Shown here piece after piece: positions 2,902-61,548 of a stretch of 64,000 bases of DNA. The notes under the pieces were generated by a model. It saw nothing but the letters and a program-made list of their open reading frames with translations, had not been told where the DNA came from and made no database searches. How positions within the stretch are numbered: position 1 is the first letter of the stretch; each line of letters begins with the position of its first letter. Source of the DNA: Cryomorphaceae bacterium (GTDB lineage: Bacteria > Bacteroidota > Bacteroidia > Flavobacteriales_D > SKUL01). The stretch covers positions 1-64,000 of the forward strand of contig REDV01000140.1 in the NCBI GenBank assembly GCA_007695365.1. The letters are read 5' to 3'. The translations under genes and the position numbers were made by a program.

Positions 2902-3804
2902 ATGCGCAAACCACCTCCGCTCACTGCGGGCGATGAAATACGAGTCCTCTCTACCGCCAGGAAAATAACCCCGCAGGAGGTAGAGCCTGCCGTTCAAATA
3001 CTGGAATCATGGGGCTTTAGGGTGAGCCTGGGCAAACATCTCTATGCCGAAGAAAGGCAGTTTGCAGGTACCGATATACAACGGCGCGCTGATTTGCAGC
3101 AGGCACTCAACGACCCGCAGGTTAAAGCCATACTTTGCGCGAGAGGGGGGTACGGAACTGCGCGGTTACTGGATGAACTCGACTTTACACACTTTCATAA
3201 TACTCCGTGCTGGTTAGCCGGATACAGCGATGTAACCGCATTGCACAACCATCTGCACCGACACCTGGGTATTTGCTCCCTGCACAGCACCATGCCCGTG
3301 AACTTCCCAACCAATACCCCTGAAGCCCTTGAAAGCCTCAGGCTGGCACTCACAGGTCAAAACCTTGAGTACAGTACCGAACCGCACCCCCTGCAGCGGG
3401 TCGGAGAATGCAGCGGGCAGCTTACGGGCGGTAACCTTTCCATGCTTTACAGCCTGATGGGCAGCCCCTCGCAGGTAGATGCCGCCGGCAAAATTCTTTT
3501 TCTGGAGGATTTGGATGAGTACCTCTACCACGTTGACAGGATGATGCTCAATTTGCTTCGTTCTGGGGTGCTGGGTAATCTCGCCGGATTGGTGGTGGGT
3601 GGTATGACTGATATGAACGACAACGCCGTGCCTTTTGGTCGCACTGCCGAGGAAATCGTTCGCGAGGCGATTGAACCCTTCGATTACCCTGTGTGCTTTG
3701 GTTTTCCGGCTGGTCATATAAAAGACAACCGCACTTTGGTACTCGGTCAAAAAACAAAGCTCACCGTCGGAGAGTCCGGGGTGAGCCTTGTACAAATATT
3801 GTAA
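2902..3804 (+). CDS. LD-carboxypeptidase (peptidase family S66)
   Basis: 300 aa, typical for S66. These serine peptidases cleave L,D-bonds in murein peptides, usually trimming tetrapeptides to tripeptides during cell-wall recycling. The catalytic triad is visible: Ser109 in GYSD, Glu202 in FLED, and His272 in AGH. No signal peptide is apparent, which agrees with a cytosolic recycling enzyme of the LdcA type. It is divergent from metG and the two 5' regions overlap slightly. It converges with the DUF4412-like gene 14 bp away. Confidence 0.9.
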   Translation: MRKPPPLTAGDEIRVLSTARKITPQEVEPAVQILESWGFRVSLGKHLYAEERQFAGTDIQRRADLQQALNDPQVKAILCARGGYGTARLLDELDFTHFHNTPCWLAGYSDVTALHNHLHRHLGICSLHSTMPVNFPTNTPEALESLRLALTGQNLEYSTEPHPLQRVGECSGQLTGGNLSMLYSLMGSPSQVDAAGKILFLEDLDEYLYHVDRMMLNLLRSGVLGNLAGLVVGGMTDMNDNAVPFGRTAEEIVREAIEPFDYPVCFGFPAGHIKDNRTLVLGQKTKLTVGESGVSLVQIL

Positions 3805-54902: not shown

Positions 54903-54986
54903 CACGTTGTTTTTTGAATCCGCATGGTACATTTTATTGTGCATGAAACGCAATTTGGTCAAGTCAGTCTCTTCGGGCACCACTCC

Positions 54987-55032
54987 TCTGATTTCCTGAC
55001 CTACCCCGGTATCGGCAACTCGCTGACCATTT
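54987..55032. repeat. Left direct repeat of the island (displaced copy of the pgm 3' end)
   Basis: Forty-six bases identical to 58777-58822. On the minus strand they read as the last ten sense codons of the phosphohexomutase gene (ending ..LPIPG), its TAG, and 14 bp of downstream flank, but here there is no gene attached. Identity ends abruptly on both sides. Confidence 0.9.
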
Positions 55033-55180: not shown

Positions 55181-55258
55181 ATGGAAATAAGCAGACTGAA
55201 ACCGAGAAAGGCGCTGAATAAAGCCTTTTTGAAACAACTACAAAAACTGACATGCTAG
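55181..55258 (+). pseudogene. Remnant resembling the N-terminus of a restriction-modification methylase
   Basis: A 25-codon open frame (ATG at 55181, TAG at 55256) with ISRLKPRKALNKAFLKQ. From memory, LKPxKALNKAFLK opens large Eco57I-like type IIG or ISP restriction-modification methylases of Bacteroidota. After this the frame ends and the TIGR02391 gene starts inside it (55252), so nearly all of such a gene would be missing. It may instead be a short leader peptide; the match is by recollection only. Confidence 0.45.
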
Positions 55259-55887
55259 ATTTTACTCATCTCCATCCTATTCTTGTGACAGACATTCAAA
55301 GCCATTTTGAAAATGGACTCTATACTGATGCTGTGCGTTCAGCAGTAATTACGTTTAATGATGAAGTCAAGAGGTACATCAAGAGCATTTACGAGTTGGA
55401 ATTGGATGGTGCTGATCTGATGCGTAAAACTTTTTCTAGGCAGAAGGGATTGCTAAAGTTTTCAGAGGATGATACTGAAACTACCCGAAATGTTCAAGAG
55501 GGGTACTGTACAATCATGGCCGGTGTTATGCAAGGAATCAGAAATCCAGTCACTCATGGAAACGAGTATTTCTCGGAGATTGAATGTGCAGAGATACTGG
55601 TGATGATTAGTCATTTATTGCGTATGTTCGACGGAGCTAAGGTTAATAATAGAATCCATTTGGATGGTCTTATATCCAAAATACGTTCTCTTGGGCCCGA
55701 ATCATTCATAAGAAGCGACAGAGGAGATAAAAGGCGATGGGTGGTCATCGAAGGCACCATTCACCACATTCATGACGGGCAAACTCACGGGCGTATTGGC
55801 AAGCTTAACGGGTACCTAAACAGTCCTCGTAAAGTAGATGGGAAAAACATAAGCAGTTACAAAAAAGGCAAAGAAATCGTTTCATAG
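55252..55887 (+). CDS. TIGR02391 (Hypoth_Ymh) domain protein with C-terminal extension
   Basis: 211 aa. Residues about 5-130 follow the TIGR02391 pattern: LHPILV, an Ala-Val-rich helix (DAVRSAVITFNDEVK), DGADLMRKTFS, a Glu-rich turn, EGYCTIMAGVMQGIRNPVTHG, then ILVMISHLLRMFD. The RNPxxHG segment resembles HEPN-fold active regions. The family is common in plasmids, prophages and defence islands, function unknown. The last 60 residues (RRWVVIEGTIHHIHDGQTHG... and a basic tail) do not belong to the domain. Starts inside the methylase-like remnant; followed 49 bp later by a methyltransferase-like gene. Confidence 0.8.
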   Translation: MLDFTHLHPILVTDIQSHFENGLYTDAVRSAVITFNDEVKRYIKSIYELELDGADLMRKTFSRQKGLLKFSEDDTETTRNVQEGYCTIMAGVMQGIRNPVTHGNEYFSEIECAEILVMISHLLRMFDGAKVNNRIHLDGLISKIRSLGPESFIRSDRGDKRRWVVIEGTIHHIHDGQTHGRIGKLNGYLNSPRKVDGKNISSYKKGKEIVS

Positions 55888-55936: not shown

Positions 55937-56620
55937 ATGAATCAATCAAAGCTATACGGCGCAGGAGACAAAATAATGAAGCTTGTTAAGGATGAAGTTA
56001 TTAGTATTCCTACGCACCAATTAAATATTCTGGATGTGGGTTTCGGAGATCCTGGTTCATTTTTTCTATTCTTCCACCTTTGTCCTTTCAATCAATATTG
56101 GGGAGTAGACCTGCTTGAAGAACAGAAATTTAAACTATCATACCCTGTAGCACTAATTAAAGAATCTGGTGAAGAATGTATTACCAATGGTTACGATTCT
56201 GTATATGTGAGATACTGTACTTTTTACAATTGCATTATTAAACAATTTAATAATAAAGTAAGTCCACTTCTTTCGGAGCAAGATTTCAAGAAAATTTTCA
56301 ACTTCCACTTTGAAATGCCTGTCCAGCAGTATTTGACTGATGGTGTCAAGAAGGATTATCGTCCGAATCTACTTGTGTTGTCTAATTTTCTTCATTGCTT
56401 GAATGACAAGAATGAAGCGGTTAATGTCTTTAGTAGCCTTATTGATTTTGTGAGTGATGATTGCTTTATTTTTATACAGGTATATACAGAGCCGCCGTTA
56501 GGGCAAACAAAGCTAGTATTCACAGAAGATGATTTAAAATTATTTGATTCACGTCTAAATGTTAAATGTAAGTATCCTGATGGGCAGTTTACCATAATTG
56601 CTGGAAGAAAGAGAGCGTAA
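55937..56620 (+). CDS. SAM-dependent methyltransferase-like protein
   Basis: 227 aa. LNILDVGFGDPGSFFLFF followed by YWGVDLLEE reads as motifs I and II of a class I methyltransferase, with an acidic residue ending the second strand. Later VLSNFLHCLND and CFIFIQVYTEP fit strands 4 and 5. No DPPY or NPPY motif, so a DNA amino-methylase is unlikely. A small-molecule, protein or RNA target is open. AT-rich, unlike host genes. Probably co-transcribed with the TIGR02391 gene and convergent with the three-gene operon. Confidence 0.65.
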   Translation: MNQSKLYGAGDKIMKLVKDEVISIPTHQLNILDVGFGDPGSFFLFFHLCPFNQYWGVDLLEEQKFKLSYPVALIKESGEECITNGYDSVYVRYCTFYNCIIKQFNNKVSPLLSEQDFKKIFNFHFEMPVQQYLTDGVKKDYRPNLLVLSNFLHCLNDKNEAVNVFSSLIDFVSDDCFIFIQVYTEPPLGQTKLVFTEDDLKLFDSRLNVKCKYPDGQFTIIAGRKRA

Positions 56621-56692: not shown

Positions 56693-57193
56693 CTATCCAT
56701 TTAATCGCTTTCTAAACGCCTTCATTTCAGCCTTTGTGCCGGGCGGAGAAATTGGCCACCGGGCTTTGCGTGCCATGATGGTTCTCAACTTTTCTGATTT
56801 TGTTCCGATGATGATCGTATGAGCTTTGTTATTCGGCTCTCCAAGATTTTCGGGATCTGAAAAAATGGGGTCGTACTCAACTTCTTGTTTTGGACAGTCT
56901 AATTGGTGGATATTTCGCCATTCCTCCACTTTGTGACTATAAACGAAGTAGTGCTTTGGGTCTTTAAAATTTGTTGTTCCCGTTTTGTACTGCTTCCCCA
57001 AGCGACTTAATGTTTCTTTGGGCGTTGAATACGCCGACCAGTCACAGGATTTATTGGGCCCCTTTTCAGGTGTGTTACCAAGCGCAGCCTCCTTGGGTTG
57101 AGGCTTTTGATCTTGGGTTTTGTGCGTTACATTCTGGTGATGAATAAAGAAATAAAGATCATCTGCATCAGGTATTTCTTCCTTTTCAAACAT
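56693..57193 (-). CDS. Island operon gene 3, unknown (DDLYxxIH / DWSAYSTP type)
   Basis: 166 aa. Begins near DADDLYFFIH, then a Lys/Gln/Pro linker, CDWSAYSTPKETL, a Lys-rich middle, and a C-terminal stretch with AHTIIIGTKSEKLR and MARKARW. I recall uncharacterised bacterial proteins that share this order (a DLYxRIH start, an S-V-D-W-x-x-Y-x-x-P box, an NxAHxxIxG box) but no name or function. No membrane or signal segment. Starts 7 bp after the stop of the gene before it. Confidence 0.65.
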   Translation of the reverse strand: MFEKEEIPDADDLYFFIHHQNVTHKTQDQKPQPKEAALGNTPEKGPNKSCDWSAYSTPKETLSRLGKQYKTGTTNFKDPKHYFVYSHKVEEWRNIHQLDCPKQEVEYDPIFSDPENLGEPNNKAHTIIIGTKSEKLRTIMARKARWPISPPGTKAEMKAFRKRLNG

Positions 57194-57200
57194 ACTGTCA

Positions 57201-57764
57201 TTAGCGGGAAAGGGCAGTCAGGTAACCTACTACATCATCAGGAAGCGGCTTATCCAATTCAATTCCTCCTTGCCGCCCCAATTCTTCTCTGTACTTATCG
57301 AAGTAGAAATATGCGATTTTGGATGCGGGATTTCGGAAATTTATCAGCATAAACGCTTCTGACAAACGCCAAACCACGTCAATCGATCCGTCGGGACACG
57401 CGTTGATTTCTGGAAAAGACAAAATCAGGTTCTGCTGGTCAGAGAGACTTTTAAATGCTTTTTTCAAAAAGGCTAAAGCATTCTCTATATTTTCTGATTC
57501 TGGTTTAAGCGCGTCATTCTCATCCCAATTGGCAACTAAGGATTCGAGCTCTGTTCTTTCTTCTTTCAGCTGTTGATTGAAATGATCATAGTCCTTGTTG
57601 GACGAACGTTCGAAACCCACTACAACTTTCATCTCGCTTCTTGGAGCATACGCCCATTCAGAGTCAAGAAACTCTTTGCTGTACCCTTGGTCGAGCGGCA
57701 ACTTGGGGCGATCGAAGGAGTGAATCTTGTCGGTTATAAAACGGTTATTGAATGTGGAGTTCAT
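57201..57764 (-). CDS. Island operon gene 2, unknown (nWDe / P-S-P-D type)
   Basis: 187 aa. Contains LESLVANWDENDA, then ENIENALAFLKKAF, then INACPDGSIDVVW and a strand-rich end. Similar small proteins (an nWdg core, a helix, and a PdGgi..eW strand) are widespread and often sit beside DLYxRIH-type proteins, as here; this is recollection rather than a search. No catalytic or membrane motif. Lies between operon genes 1 and 3 with gaps of 15 and 7 bp. Confidence 0.65.
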   Translation of the reverse strand: MNSTFNNRFITDKIHSFDRPKLPLDQGYSKEFLDSEWAYAPRSEMKVVVGFERSSNKDYDHFNQQLKEERTELESLVANWDENDALKPESENIENALAFLKKAFKSLSDQQNLILSFPEINACPDGSIDVVWRLSEAFMLINFRNPASKIAYFYFDKYREELGRQGGIELDKPLPDDVVGYLTALSR

Positions 57765-57779
57765 CTTTCAATTCAATTT

Positions 57780-58454
57780 TTATTGCTCAATGAATGTAAA
57801 AGCACCTGATTTGCGCATCTGATCTTCTTTTTTTAGTGCCCGATCAATATGCTGCTTTATTTCCTGCAACTGCGAGCGCGTTAAACTTACATAGAGCTCT
57901 TTCTGACCGTCAGCATCACGCCGTGCAAGTTTTAGTCGATGAATAATAATGGCATGTTCACATTCCAAAGATGGATCCTCGTCATCAAACAAGAGGCGAA
58001 TATCAGAAATCACTCTGCAAGAATCATAAACATGCTCTGATTCATACAACAAGCTGGTTGCCTTCAGTGCACGACGAATAACAATTGCTTCGTCGTATAA
58101 AAGCTGCACCCTTTCTGCGATTTTTTCCGCATTACCAAAATCCTTTTCTTGAAGCTGGTCACTCAATGAAGAGTAGAAGTCTTTAAAAAACACTTCTGAC
58201 GTATCATTTTGACGGTATCGGAATGAAATCATTCCTAAGATTGCCTCTATCGCATGCCTATGTTTTGTTTCTTTAATCTCGGCAATCCAATTAACAATAT
58301 CCTGAATTTTAGGCGTAGTATCTTTGCTTAATCCACCTTTAAAAAGATCACTTAGTTTATCAAACTCCTTCAGTTCCAAATCACCAATGGTAATAAATCC
58401 GGATAGATGATTTTCTGGAATGTTTATTCTGGCCACAGCAGGCAAGTTAACCAA
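57780..58454 (-). CDS. Island operon gene 1, unknown (ISDIRxxFD type)
   Basis: 224 aa. First half is a helical region (IQDIVNWIAEIKETKHRHAIE). Second half has ATSLLYESEHVYDSCRVI, SDIRLLFDDEDP, HAIIIHRLKLARRD and LYVSLTRSQLQEIKQHIDRA, a pattern of uncharacterised proteins with a 'xDxRPxFD' strand pair and a final helix. It heads the minus-strand operon of three genes. No signal peptide or membrane helix, so cytosolic. Confidence 0.65.
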   Translation of the reverse strand: MVNLPAVARINIPENHLSGFITIGDLELKEFDKLSDLFKGGLSKDTTPKIQDIVNWIAEIKETKHRHAIEAILGMISFRYRQNDTSEVFFKDFYSSLSDQLQEKDFGNAEKIAERVQLLYDEAIVIRRALKATSLLYESEHVYDSCRVISDIRLLFDDEDPSLECEHAIIIHRLKLARRDADGQKELYVSLTRSQLQEIKQHIDRALKKEDQMRKSGAFTFIEQ

Positions 58455-58716: not shown

Positions 58717-58776
58717 ATACCCCCGCTGCTGCGCGAAAAACAATTCGACGCAGTCCATTCCTTAACGAACCACACG

Positions 58777-58822
58777 TCTGATTTCCTGACCTACCCCGGT
58801 ATCGGCAACTCGCTGACCATTT
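58777..58822. repeat. Right direct repeat of the island (native pgm 3' end)
   Basis: Second copy of the 46-bp repeat at 54987-55032. Here bases 58791-58822 are the genuine end of the phosphohexomutase gene and the other 14 bp are its downstream flank. Confidence 0.9.
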
Positions 58823-60527
58823 GTTCGGTGCGACGGCCGAGATCTGTCCAAACGTTGTGGAAGTTGGCGGTGGAGGAAAGCGGCGCTTTCAGGCTGAAGT
58901 AGAATTTGATTTTGGGCTCGGTGCCGGAGGGGCGGGCTGTAATCTTGCTGCCATCCTGCAGCACAAATTGCAACACATTGCTTTTGGGCAATCCGATGGG
59001 TTCGCGCTGGCCATTTTCAAGGTTCAGCACCTCCTGCGACTGAAAGTCTTTGCGAAGCATCACAGGCACACCGCCTAATTGTTGCGGCGGCTGGGTGCGC
59101 AGCGTTTCCATCAACATTTTGATTTCCTCCGCGCCATCTCGACCTTTGCGGGTAACGGAAACCAGCGATTCACGGTAACAGCCGTAGCGTGCGTAAATAT
59201 CCAGCAGCAATGCATAAAAACTGCTGCCCCGGCTTTTGGCCCACGCGGCAGCTTCGCACAGCATGACCGACGAAATCACGGCGTCCTTGTCGCGGACCAA
59301 ATCGCCCACGAGGTAGCCGTAGCTCTCTTCGCCCCCGCCAATAAAAACCTCCGAGCCTTCTTTGCGCGCAATCACGTCGGCAATGTACTTGAAGCCGGTG
59401 AGCGTTTCGTAGGTGTTTACGCCGTAATCGCGGGCTATTTCCCCGAGTAAATCAGAAGTTACCACCGTTTTGCAAACAAACTCGTTGCCCTGCAGTTTGC
59501 CCAACTCCTTCCACTTTTCGAGCAGGTAGTAAATCAGCACCGAAGCAGCCTGGTTGCCGTTGAGAAGTTCCAGCTCACCCTTCAGATTGCGCACGGCGAT
59601 ACCCACGCGGTCGGCGTCGGGATCGGTACCGAGAATAATATCCGCACCGGATTGTTCACCCTGCGCAAGCGCCATGGCAAGGGCTTCGCGCTCCTCGGGG
59701 TTGGGCGATTTTACAGTAGAGAAAGCCGGGTCGGGATGGCTTTGTTCCTTTACAAGGGCAGTGTGCGTAAAACCGGCTTCGCGAAGCGCATCGGGAACCA
59801 GCATCACAGAAGTACCATGCAATGGGGTGAAAACCACCTTCAATTCGGAGGCTGCCTGAGCGTCGTTCAGGAGGTACAAGTTGCGGATGGCCTGCAAATA
59901 CATGCGGTCCATTTCCTTTCCAAGCACCTGTATAAGCGACTCGTCAACATCGGTTCGCACCTGTTCGATGCCTTCCATTTTTCGCACTTCGGCGATGATG
60001 TTGGTGTCGTGCGGAGCCACAATCTGCCCGCCATCGTTCCAGTACACCTTGTAGCCGTTGTACTCGGGGGGGTTGTGCGATGCCGTAACTACAATGCCCG
60101 TGGTGCAGCCCAATTGGCGCACGGCAAACGACAACTCTGGCGTGGGTCGCAGGCTCTCAAACAGGTAGGCCTGCACACCGTTGGCTGCAAACACCTCGGC
60201 GGCGGTACGCGCAAACTCCGCGCTGTTGTACCTGCAATCAAAAGCAATGGCTGCTTTTGGATTTTCAATGCCGCATTGCCGGATGTAATTGCAAAGCCCT
60301 TGTGTAGCCATGGCAATGGTGTATCGGTTTACGCGGTTGGTGCCGGGGCCCATGATTCCGCGCAAACCACCGGTGCCAAATTCAAGGTCGCGGTAAAAAG
60401 CCTCGGTGAGCTCGTCCGATTGGTCGGCCATCATCTGCTGCACCTGTTGGCGTGTTTGTTCGTCGTAAGGAGCTTGTGTCCAGCTTTGCGCTCTTTGCAG
60501 AACGCGCTCTTCGGTTGGTTGACCCAT
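58791..60527 (-). CDS. Phosphoglucomutase/phosphomannomutase family protein
   Basis: 578 aa from the ATG at 60527; upstream codons overlap rfbB. Interconverts hexose 1- and 6-phosphates. The phospho-Ser is Ser150 in TASHNPPEYNGYK, the metal loop is GTDPDADRVG, the sugar loop GGGEESYGYL, and the phosphate-binding RPSGTEPKIKFY is near the end. The beta form of the long PgcA/PMM-2 type is expected. In the dTDP-sugar operon it can supply glucose-1-phosphate. Its 3' end is the island's duplicated target. Confidence 0.93.
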   Translation of the reverse strand: MGQPTEERVLQRAQSWTQAPYDEQTRQQVQQMMADQSDELTEAFYRDLEFGTGGLRGIMGPGTNRVNRYTIAMATQGLCNYIRQCGIENPKAAIAFDCRYNSAEFARTAAEVFAANGVQAYLFESLRPTPELSFAVRQLGCTTGIVVTASHNPPEYNGYKVYWNDGGQIVAPHDTNIIAEVRKMEGIEQVRTDVDESLIQVLGKEMDRMYLQAIRNLYLLNDAQAASELKVVFTPLHGTSVMLVPDALREAGFTHTALVKEQSHPDPAFSTVKSPNPEEREALAMALAQGEQSGADIILGTDPDADRVGIAVRNLKGELELLNGNQAASVLIYYLLEKWKELGKLQGNEFVCKTVVTSDLLGEIARDYGVNTYETLTGFKYIADVIARKEGSEVFIGGGEESYGYLVGDLVRDKDAVISSVMLCEAAAWAKSRGSSFYALLLDIYARYGCYRESLVSVTRKGRDGAEEIKMLMETLRTQPPQQLGGVPVMLRKDFQSQEVLNLENGQREPIGLPKSNVLQFVLQDGSKITARPSGTEPKIKFYFSLKAPLSSTANFHNVWTDLGRRTEQMVSELPIPG

Positions 60528-60528
60528 G

Positions 60529-61548
60529 CTAAGCGGTGAATTTTTTAACGTACCACTGTACGGTTTTTTCAATTCCTGATTCAAAGTTTTCGTCGGCGCG
60601 CCAGCCCAGCTCACCTTCAATTTTGGTGGCGTCAATGGCGTAGCGCTGGTCGTGACCCGGCCGGTCTGTTACAAAGTTGATGAGCCGCTCATAGCTCCCT
60701 TCTGCATCGGGGTGAATGCGGTTGAGCATCTCGCAAATGGTGCGGGCTATGTAGAGGTTGTTGCGCTCGTTTCGTCCGCCAATGTTGTAGGTTTCGCCCT
60801 CGCTGCCTTTTTCAAAGGCGAGTAAAATTCCCTTGCAGTGATCCAGCACATAGAGCCAATCGCGAATGTTGCTGCCGTCGCCATAAATGGGAATAGGCTG
60901 TGCAGACAAGGCCTTGCGGATGATGGTTGGAATGAGTTTCTCATCGTGCTGCTTCGGACCGTAATTGTTGGAGCAGTTGGTGGTAACCACTCCCAGCCCG
61001 AAAGTGTGAAAATAGCTACGCACAAAATGGTCGCTGCTGGCTTTGCTGGCGCTGTACGGACTGTTGGGTGCGTAGGGAGTGGTTTCGGAAAAGAGACCCG
61101 TTTCGCCCAGGCTTCCGTAAACCTCGTCGGTAGATACGTGCAGGAAGCGCGCGTGTTCCATACCCGCTTTGCGCTGATGCGGCGCGTCCATCCAGTACTT
61201 TCGGGCCACTTCCAGCAGGTTAAAGGTGCCCACCACGTTGGTTTGCACAAAAGCCTTGGGGCCTGTAATGCTGTTGTCCACGTGCGATTCGGCCGCGAAG
61301 TGAATCACGCCGTCAATTCGGTGCTCGCTGAAAATGCGCTCAACCCATTCGGTATCGCAAATATCTCCCTGCACAAAGGTGTAGCGGGGGTGGTTTTCAA
61401 CTTCCTTTAGATTTTGAAGATTGCCGGCATAGGTGAGCAAATCGAGGTTCACGACGTGAACATCGGGTCTGGTTTCCAGCAGATGCGGAACGAAATTGGA
61501 GCCAATAAATCCTGCTCCTCCTGTAACGAGTATATGGGTAGGGTTCAT
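60529..61548 (-). CDS. rfbB: dTDP-glucose 4,6-dehydratase
   Basis: 339 aa from the ATG at 61548. Extended SDR enzyme making dTDP-4-keto-6-deoxyglucose. NAD-binding TGGAGFIGSN at residues 9-18, the catalytic STDEVYG strand and YSASKASSD loop present. The frame is open for 108 more codons upstream, but they overlap rfbD. The 4-bp overlap with rfbD and a 1-bp gap to the mutase gene show one operon. rfbA and rfbC are not in the window. Confidence 0.95.
   Translation of the reverse strand: MNPTHILVTGGAGFIGSNFVPHLLETRPDVHVVNLDLLTYAGNLQNLKEVENHPRYTFVQGDICDTEWVERIFSEHRIDGVIHFAAESHVDNSITGPKAFVQTNVVGTFNLLEVARKYWMDAPHQRKAGMEHARFLHVSTDEVYGSLGETGLFSETTPYAPNSPYSASKASSDHFVRSYFHTFGLGVVTTNCSNNYGPKQHDEKLIPTIIRKALSAQPIPIYGDGSNIRDWLYVLDHCKGILLAFEKGSEGETYNIGGRNERNNLYIARTICEMLNRIHPDAEGSYERLINFVTDRPGHDQRYAIDATKIEGELGWRADENFESGIEKTVQWYVKKFTA

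Follow-up and report, generated by a model that had tools for sequence, protein, structure and literature searches.

A COMMD-like gene heads a mobile three-gene operon related to the phage defence candidate PDC-M32

The window, i.e. the whole stretch of DNA analysed here, comprises the first 64,000 nucleotides of contig REDV01000140.1 from a Cryomorphaceae bacterium (assembly GCA_007695365.1). Between positions 56693 and 58454, its minus strand carries three tightly packed genes in the order A-B-C (Table 1). The ORF coordinates, with intergenic gaps of 15 bp (A-B) and 7 bp (B-C), bear out the three-gene minus-strand operon and the spacing reported in the preliminary description. The sizes given there (224, 187 and 166 aa) hold for B and C but probably not for A. 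A TTG codon at 58454 would indeed give a protein of 224 aa (57780-58454), but all A homologues begin at the equivalent of 'VARINIPE', which makes the GTG codon at 58436 the likely start. Seven further, distant genomes carry homologues arranged in this order, so these ORFs are real genes and not chance frames. None of the three proteins had a usable match in Pfam, NCBIfam or PHROGs. The earlier statement that no named family is present thus stands for these three collections, but not for PADLOC, where B matches PDC-M32A (E 3.9e-4), nor for the PDB, where A matches entry 9q6a.

Table 1. Features of the operon, of the island that carries it and of the insertion site
Feature	Positions	Strand	Basis or remark
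Gene A, COMMD-like, 218 aa	57780..58436	-	Likely GTG start at 58436; 9q6a and COMMD7 profile matches
Gene B, adaptor-like, 187 aa	57201..57764	-	PDC-M32A match, hhalign, AF2
Gene C, candidate effector, 166 aa	56693..57193	-	AF2; PDC-M32B match via relative P0008
Left 46-bp repeat copy, far island boundary	54987..55032		Perfect repeat match
Right 46-bp repeat copy, att-like	58777..58822		Overlaps the phosphohexomutase gene at its final codons and stop
Phosphohexomutase, host gene at the insertion site	58791..60635	-	ORF; named from the sequence by eye
Hypoth_Ymh (PF09509) HEPN-like protein, island co-cargo	55252..55887	+	PF09509, E 8.1e-24
Uncharacterised co-cargo, methyltransferase-like N-terminus by eye	55937..56620	+	No family above cutoff

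The operon had also been placed inside an island, and two features confirm this: a GC content of about 0.39-0.40, against about 0.50 in the surroundings, and a flanking perfect 46-bp direct repeat, present in two copies and nowhere else in the whole genome. The island, which was acquired laterally, is about 3.8 kb long. Its right repeat overlaps the 3' end of the phosphohexomutase gene, which nevertheless remains intact, and this layout is the anatomy of a site-specific integration into a gene 3' end. The phosphohexomutase has a full-length homologue, 56% identical, in another genome (G003); no close copy was found in the one genome of the same genus (81% complete). Since none of the ORFs within the 3.8-kb island is integrase-like, the island would have either decayed or been moved in trans. 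Adjoining the repeat, a further 47 bp (54940-54986 and 58730-58776) are about 60% identical between the two ends of the island, as would be expected of an element that had brought along its own version of the region downstream of the host gene.

Besides A-B-C, the island carries two cargo genes on the opposite strand. The Hypoth_Ymh protein also matches the PADLOC models PD-Lambda-3_B (E 7.1e-13) and Aga_HEPN (E 3.4e-8). Together with its methyltransferase-like neighbour, it possibly forms a second defence unit. Both genes are treated here as co-cargo and not as members of the A-B-C module.

The profile of the A family, built from nine proteins, matches PDB entry 9q6a over its full length (E 6.6e-47). 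This entry was deposited as 'COMMD-like protein MBK5214510' and has the related entries 9q6c and 9q6d; the window protein, used as a single sequence, also finds it (E 5e-16). The same profile matches human COMMD7 with a whole-sequence E of 6.5e-4, the HN region and then the COMM region aligning in order, each domain being weak when taken singly (i-Evalues 0.18 and 60). According to this alignment, A comprises a helical N-terminal HN-like domain followed by a C-terminal COMM-like domain of about 75 residues. The latter has an (I/L)(S/T)DIR core that reads (S/T)D(I/L)R in the family alignment. Searched alone, the C-terminal part gives E 4.6e-25 with 9q6a and E 0.96 with COMMD7. These comparisons provide good support for A being a bacterial COMMD-like protein. 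However, A should not be called a canonical COMMD protein, since its family stays below the curated cutoff of Pfam COMM_domain (PF07258; one of the nine members at E 0.026) and lacks the invariant tryptophan, whose place in the A alignment is taken by the DIR core already pointed out in the preliminary description. This residue is strictly conserved in all eukaryotic COMMDs (PMC10187114). A is homologous to the solved COMMD-like protein over its full length, but it sits in a bacterial operon where no CCDC22 or CCDC93 relative was recognised.

Gene B and gene C lead to another known family. Nine of the 14 B-family proteins match PDC-M32A models (best E 1.5e-8), those examined in detail falling in the last ~110 of 375 model positions, and comparison of the B family with four full PDC-M32A-type proteins using hhalign gave a probability of 93 (E 3.4e-7). 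The C protein of the window has no direct match to PDC-M32B models and most C members are below detection, only one of 14 being matched (P0008, E 7.1e-4). At family level, the C and PDC-M32B alignments match with a probability of 74 and an E of 2.7e-5 (hhalign). Hence, B-C is, with good support from profile comparison, a distant relative of the PDC-M32 pair, for C through its family and not through the window protein alone. PDC-M32 is a phage defence candidate of PADLOC, a class whose members are unvalidated (PMC12988326). The likeness covers the last ~100 residues of PDC-M32A for B and PDC-M32B for C, with the same order and tight coupling. The difference is that PDC-M32A fuses to its B part an N-terminal domain of ~260 residues, absent from the B protein of the window, where a separate COMMD-like gene leads instead. 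Since B has only 187 aa, a predicted disordered tail and no fused N-terminal domain, A-B-C is a variant rather than a strict member of PDC-M32. A second copy of the family, a PDC-M32-type pair, lies in the same genome as the window (L048, on G000:C110, 6404-7950); a DUF3037 gene is located downstream of this pair.

AF2 predicts that residues 1-52 of B are disordered and that residues 55-187 are confidently folded into two helices, five strands and one helix, with a WDE...P.I...DGSID.W core. The stretch preceding the WD motif has a mean length of 111 residues in loci containing A versus 69 in loci without A, a comparison of few and related loci with uncertain starts. C is predicted to be well folded (pLDDT 91, pTM 0.85), and its conserved residues (S49-x-D51-W52..Y55, P109, N122..H125, G130 and R137) look like a candidate active or binding site. 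Foldseek found no match in the PDB for the predicted fold of B or of C; since neither resembles a solved fold, any chemistry attributed to C is a guess.

We searched 396 genomes of the phylum with a concatenated A-B-C query. G208 yielded all three genes in this order, G381 and G262 yielded A, and G157 yielded B; inspection of the loci then revealed complete sets in G381 and G157, and a C profile run over the 396 genomes added G321. A scan of 84,980 species genomes provided nine more loci; L022 is the G208 contig again. Altogether, ORF profiling identified eight A-B-C loci (the window, G208, G381, G157, L024, L025, L028 and L031). Their hosts are widely separated genomes of the Bacteroidota group, including Balneolaceae (G208), Ignavibacteria (L024), Pedobacter (L025) and Chitinophaga (L028). 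In these eight loci, A and B are 1-21 bp apart and the B-C distance ranges from -22 to +7 bp, with identities of about 13-33% for A, 15-32% for B and 25-51% for C. Distances between the A, B and C sequences are not significantly correlated (Mantel p 0.06-0.21) and so do not establish strict co-inheritance, which weakens the case for a single unit. Weak A matches in G048 and G169 were rejected as chance, as was a C match in G082 whose frame overlaps a glycosyltransferase gene.

Credible A and credible C genes each occur in 5 of the 396 genomes, four genomes having both. Leaving out the genome of the window, three of the four A genomes are also three of the four C genomes among the remaining 395, with the genes adjacent (hypergeometric p about 1.6e-6 in a test that ignores relatedness). 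The co-occurrence of the three families in varied bacteria, stated in the preliminary description, was therefore right. By tblastn, no plasmid matched the three window proteins or the A protein of G208; C and A of G208 had no match on plasmids or phages, and neither A nor C turned up in viral contigs.

These loci also show that the trio is not obligatory. Almost all C loci that were inspected have B next to C, at a spacing between -52 bp (overlap) and +17 bp; the gene preceding C in L081 is too divergent for the B profile. B-C is thus a constant core, A being one of several exchangeable first components. The first slot is occupied by the COMMD-like A in eight loci, by a TIGR04255 protein in L020 (E 1.4e-24) and L023 (E 1.5e-43), and by a TIGR04255-related protein in L081 and L082. 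The TIGR04255-B-C operons have the same core and the same first-gene position as A-B-C, but TIGR04255 is a family without known function in which no similarity to COMMD was detected. In two loci from Planctomycetota (L079, 5063-5356; L080, about 3475-3765), the slot contains a protein of ~95 aa. This small protein carries a HANH motif; a DUF3467 identity suspected by eye obtained no Pfam match and was not retained. In PDC-M32A, including the C110 copy, the first component is fused as an N-terminal domain. Finally, the slot is empty in four Chitinophaga/Flavihumibacter loci, whose genomes have no A elsewhere. In viral contigs L069 and L070 (3357-4414), B is apparently fused to an N-terminus that is zinc-ribbon-like by eye and is followed by a PDC-M32B-like gene, which would be yet another form of the first slot.

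Conversely, A has homologues in nine other loci and opens a tight row of three genes in all ten A loci, including two where it leads partners other than B-C: a 189-aa protein and a DUF7689 protein beside a Schlafen-AlbA/STAND NTPase gene in G262, and proteins of 237 and 220 aa in G606 (Planctomycetota). The 'mobile three-part module' proposed earlier is therefore recurrent and lies on mobile DNA in the window and in at least one other host (G157), but its parts are a B-C core whose first slot swaps and an A protein that also leads other pairs. Where a COMMD-like gene heads an operon of three genes with unrelated partners, in L084 (4633-6704) and L019 (7656-9389), the third gene displays, by eye, NC/TC motifs that recall papain-like cysteine hydrolases.

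Our best estimate, held with barely more than even confidence, is that A-B-C acts as a mobile module in biological conflicts, in all likelihood against phages, with a scaffold-adaptor-effector build. A would form an oligomeric COMM scaffold or sensor, by analogy with eukaryotic COMMDs, and would hold B by its flexible N-terminal tail. The folded C-terminal domain of B would keep C inactive or present it. The first component would sense a signal linked to infection, upon which C would be released, putatively a small enzyme with S49, D51 and H125 as candidate residues, and freed C would stop phage production or the infected cell. The scaffold-adaptor part of this scheme is suggested by the tail of B, which is predicted to be disordered and is longer in loci containing A. 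In the eukaryotic Commander/CCC complex, disordered N-terminal segments of CCDC22/93 wind around a COMMD ring (PMC10187114), and the predicted tail of B may resemble them in principle. However, apart from the COMMD-like subunit, the A-B-C locus shows no evident counterpart of this complex, whether CCDC22, CCDC93 or Retriever homologue.

The conflict-module reading rests on the homology of A, the B-C core, the exchangeable slot, the repeat-flanked island and several neighbours, namely a D12 methyltransferase gene adjoining the L081 locus and Abi_2 and GmrSD-type genes near other PDC-M32 pairs. Phages are designated as the probable target by the kinship with PDC-M32 and by further neighbours. 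AbiH lies 22 bp from A-B-C in G381. In G157 (L018, 10626-13276), A-B-C is the cargo of a small element with a tyrosine integrase, HTH_17 and REP_ORF2-G2P. The Pedobacter locus has a DUF6119 neighbour, and in viral contigs L066-L068 a PDC-M32-type pair immediately follows an S24-type (CI-type) repressor gene. The region downstream of the prophage repressor is a typical site of prophage-encoded immunity genes. Since no clear defence or mobile neighbour is present at about half of the A-B-C loci, the phage target is a probability and not a result. This proportion counts against the conflict reading, as do the unvalidated status of PADLOC candidates and the fact that human COMMDs act in endosomal recycling, not in immunity.

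An addiction module resembling TA systems would also fit small, tightly coupled and often overlapping genes on mobile DNA. C (or B) would be the toxin, B and/or the first component the antitoxin, and the module would stabilise mobile elements instead of opposing phages. PDC-M32 pairs are indeed found on plasmids, one copy being next to RelE/ParE and VapBC genes. However, three components with an exchangeable and sometimes missing first protein would be unusual for such a system. Moreover, family profile searches of A, B and C detected neither a DNA-binding domain nor a recognisable type II toxin or antitoxin domain, and the fold search of C matched no toxin. We therefore consider this alternative unlikely. 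The operon could instead encode a regulatory or maintenance complex without any role in conflict, A being a COMMD scaffold that would help to sort proteins, control their quality or bind cargo. Eukaryotic COMMDs, which are the relatives of A known best, have a scaffold role in membrane trafficking (PMC10187114), and the B-C pairs of Chitinophaga are surrounded by ordinary genes of metabolism. The very sporadic distribution of A and C, their location on mobile DNA and the position of PDC-M32 relatives beside prophage repressors make this explanation improbable too. Lastly, B-C could function alone, with A as an independent passenger, since each occurs without the other; this is very improbable, as A lies directly upstream of B-C in the same order in eight distant loci and other genes or a fused domain often fill its slot elsewhere.

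A broader proposal can be made, which we regard as rather doubtful: bacterial COMMD relatives would be interchangeable scaffold or sensor subunits of anti-phage modules serving at least three adaptor-effector pairs (B-C, the 189-aa and DUF7689 proteins, and the G606 pair). The eukaryotic Commander complex, whose ring consists of COMMD proteins, might then have evolved from an immune scaffold of this kind. The operon had been presented as the strongest candidate in the window for an undescribed system. This no longer applies to its parts: B-C is related to a PADLOC candidate and A has a solved homologue, the PDC-M32 candidate and the bacterial COMMD-like structure being already on record, each separately. 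It still applies to their combination, since the open literature, which leaves most subscription papers and preprints outside, yielded no description of a recurring operon that unites A with B-C, nor of an exchangeable first slot; a publication that we have not seen is possible. The same literature gave no paper about COMMD proteins in bacteria either.

These data suggest a use of the COMMD fold in bacteria too, perhaps for defence against viruses. If this is true, a fold whose non-eukaryotic origin is little known would gain a testable bacterial context. Furthermore, a catalogued but uncharacterised defence candidate would become a modular family, made of a constant two-gene core and a swappable first component. 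A-B-C would also be a compact construct of 1.7 kb for testing both this COMMD context and the defence candidate.
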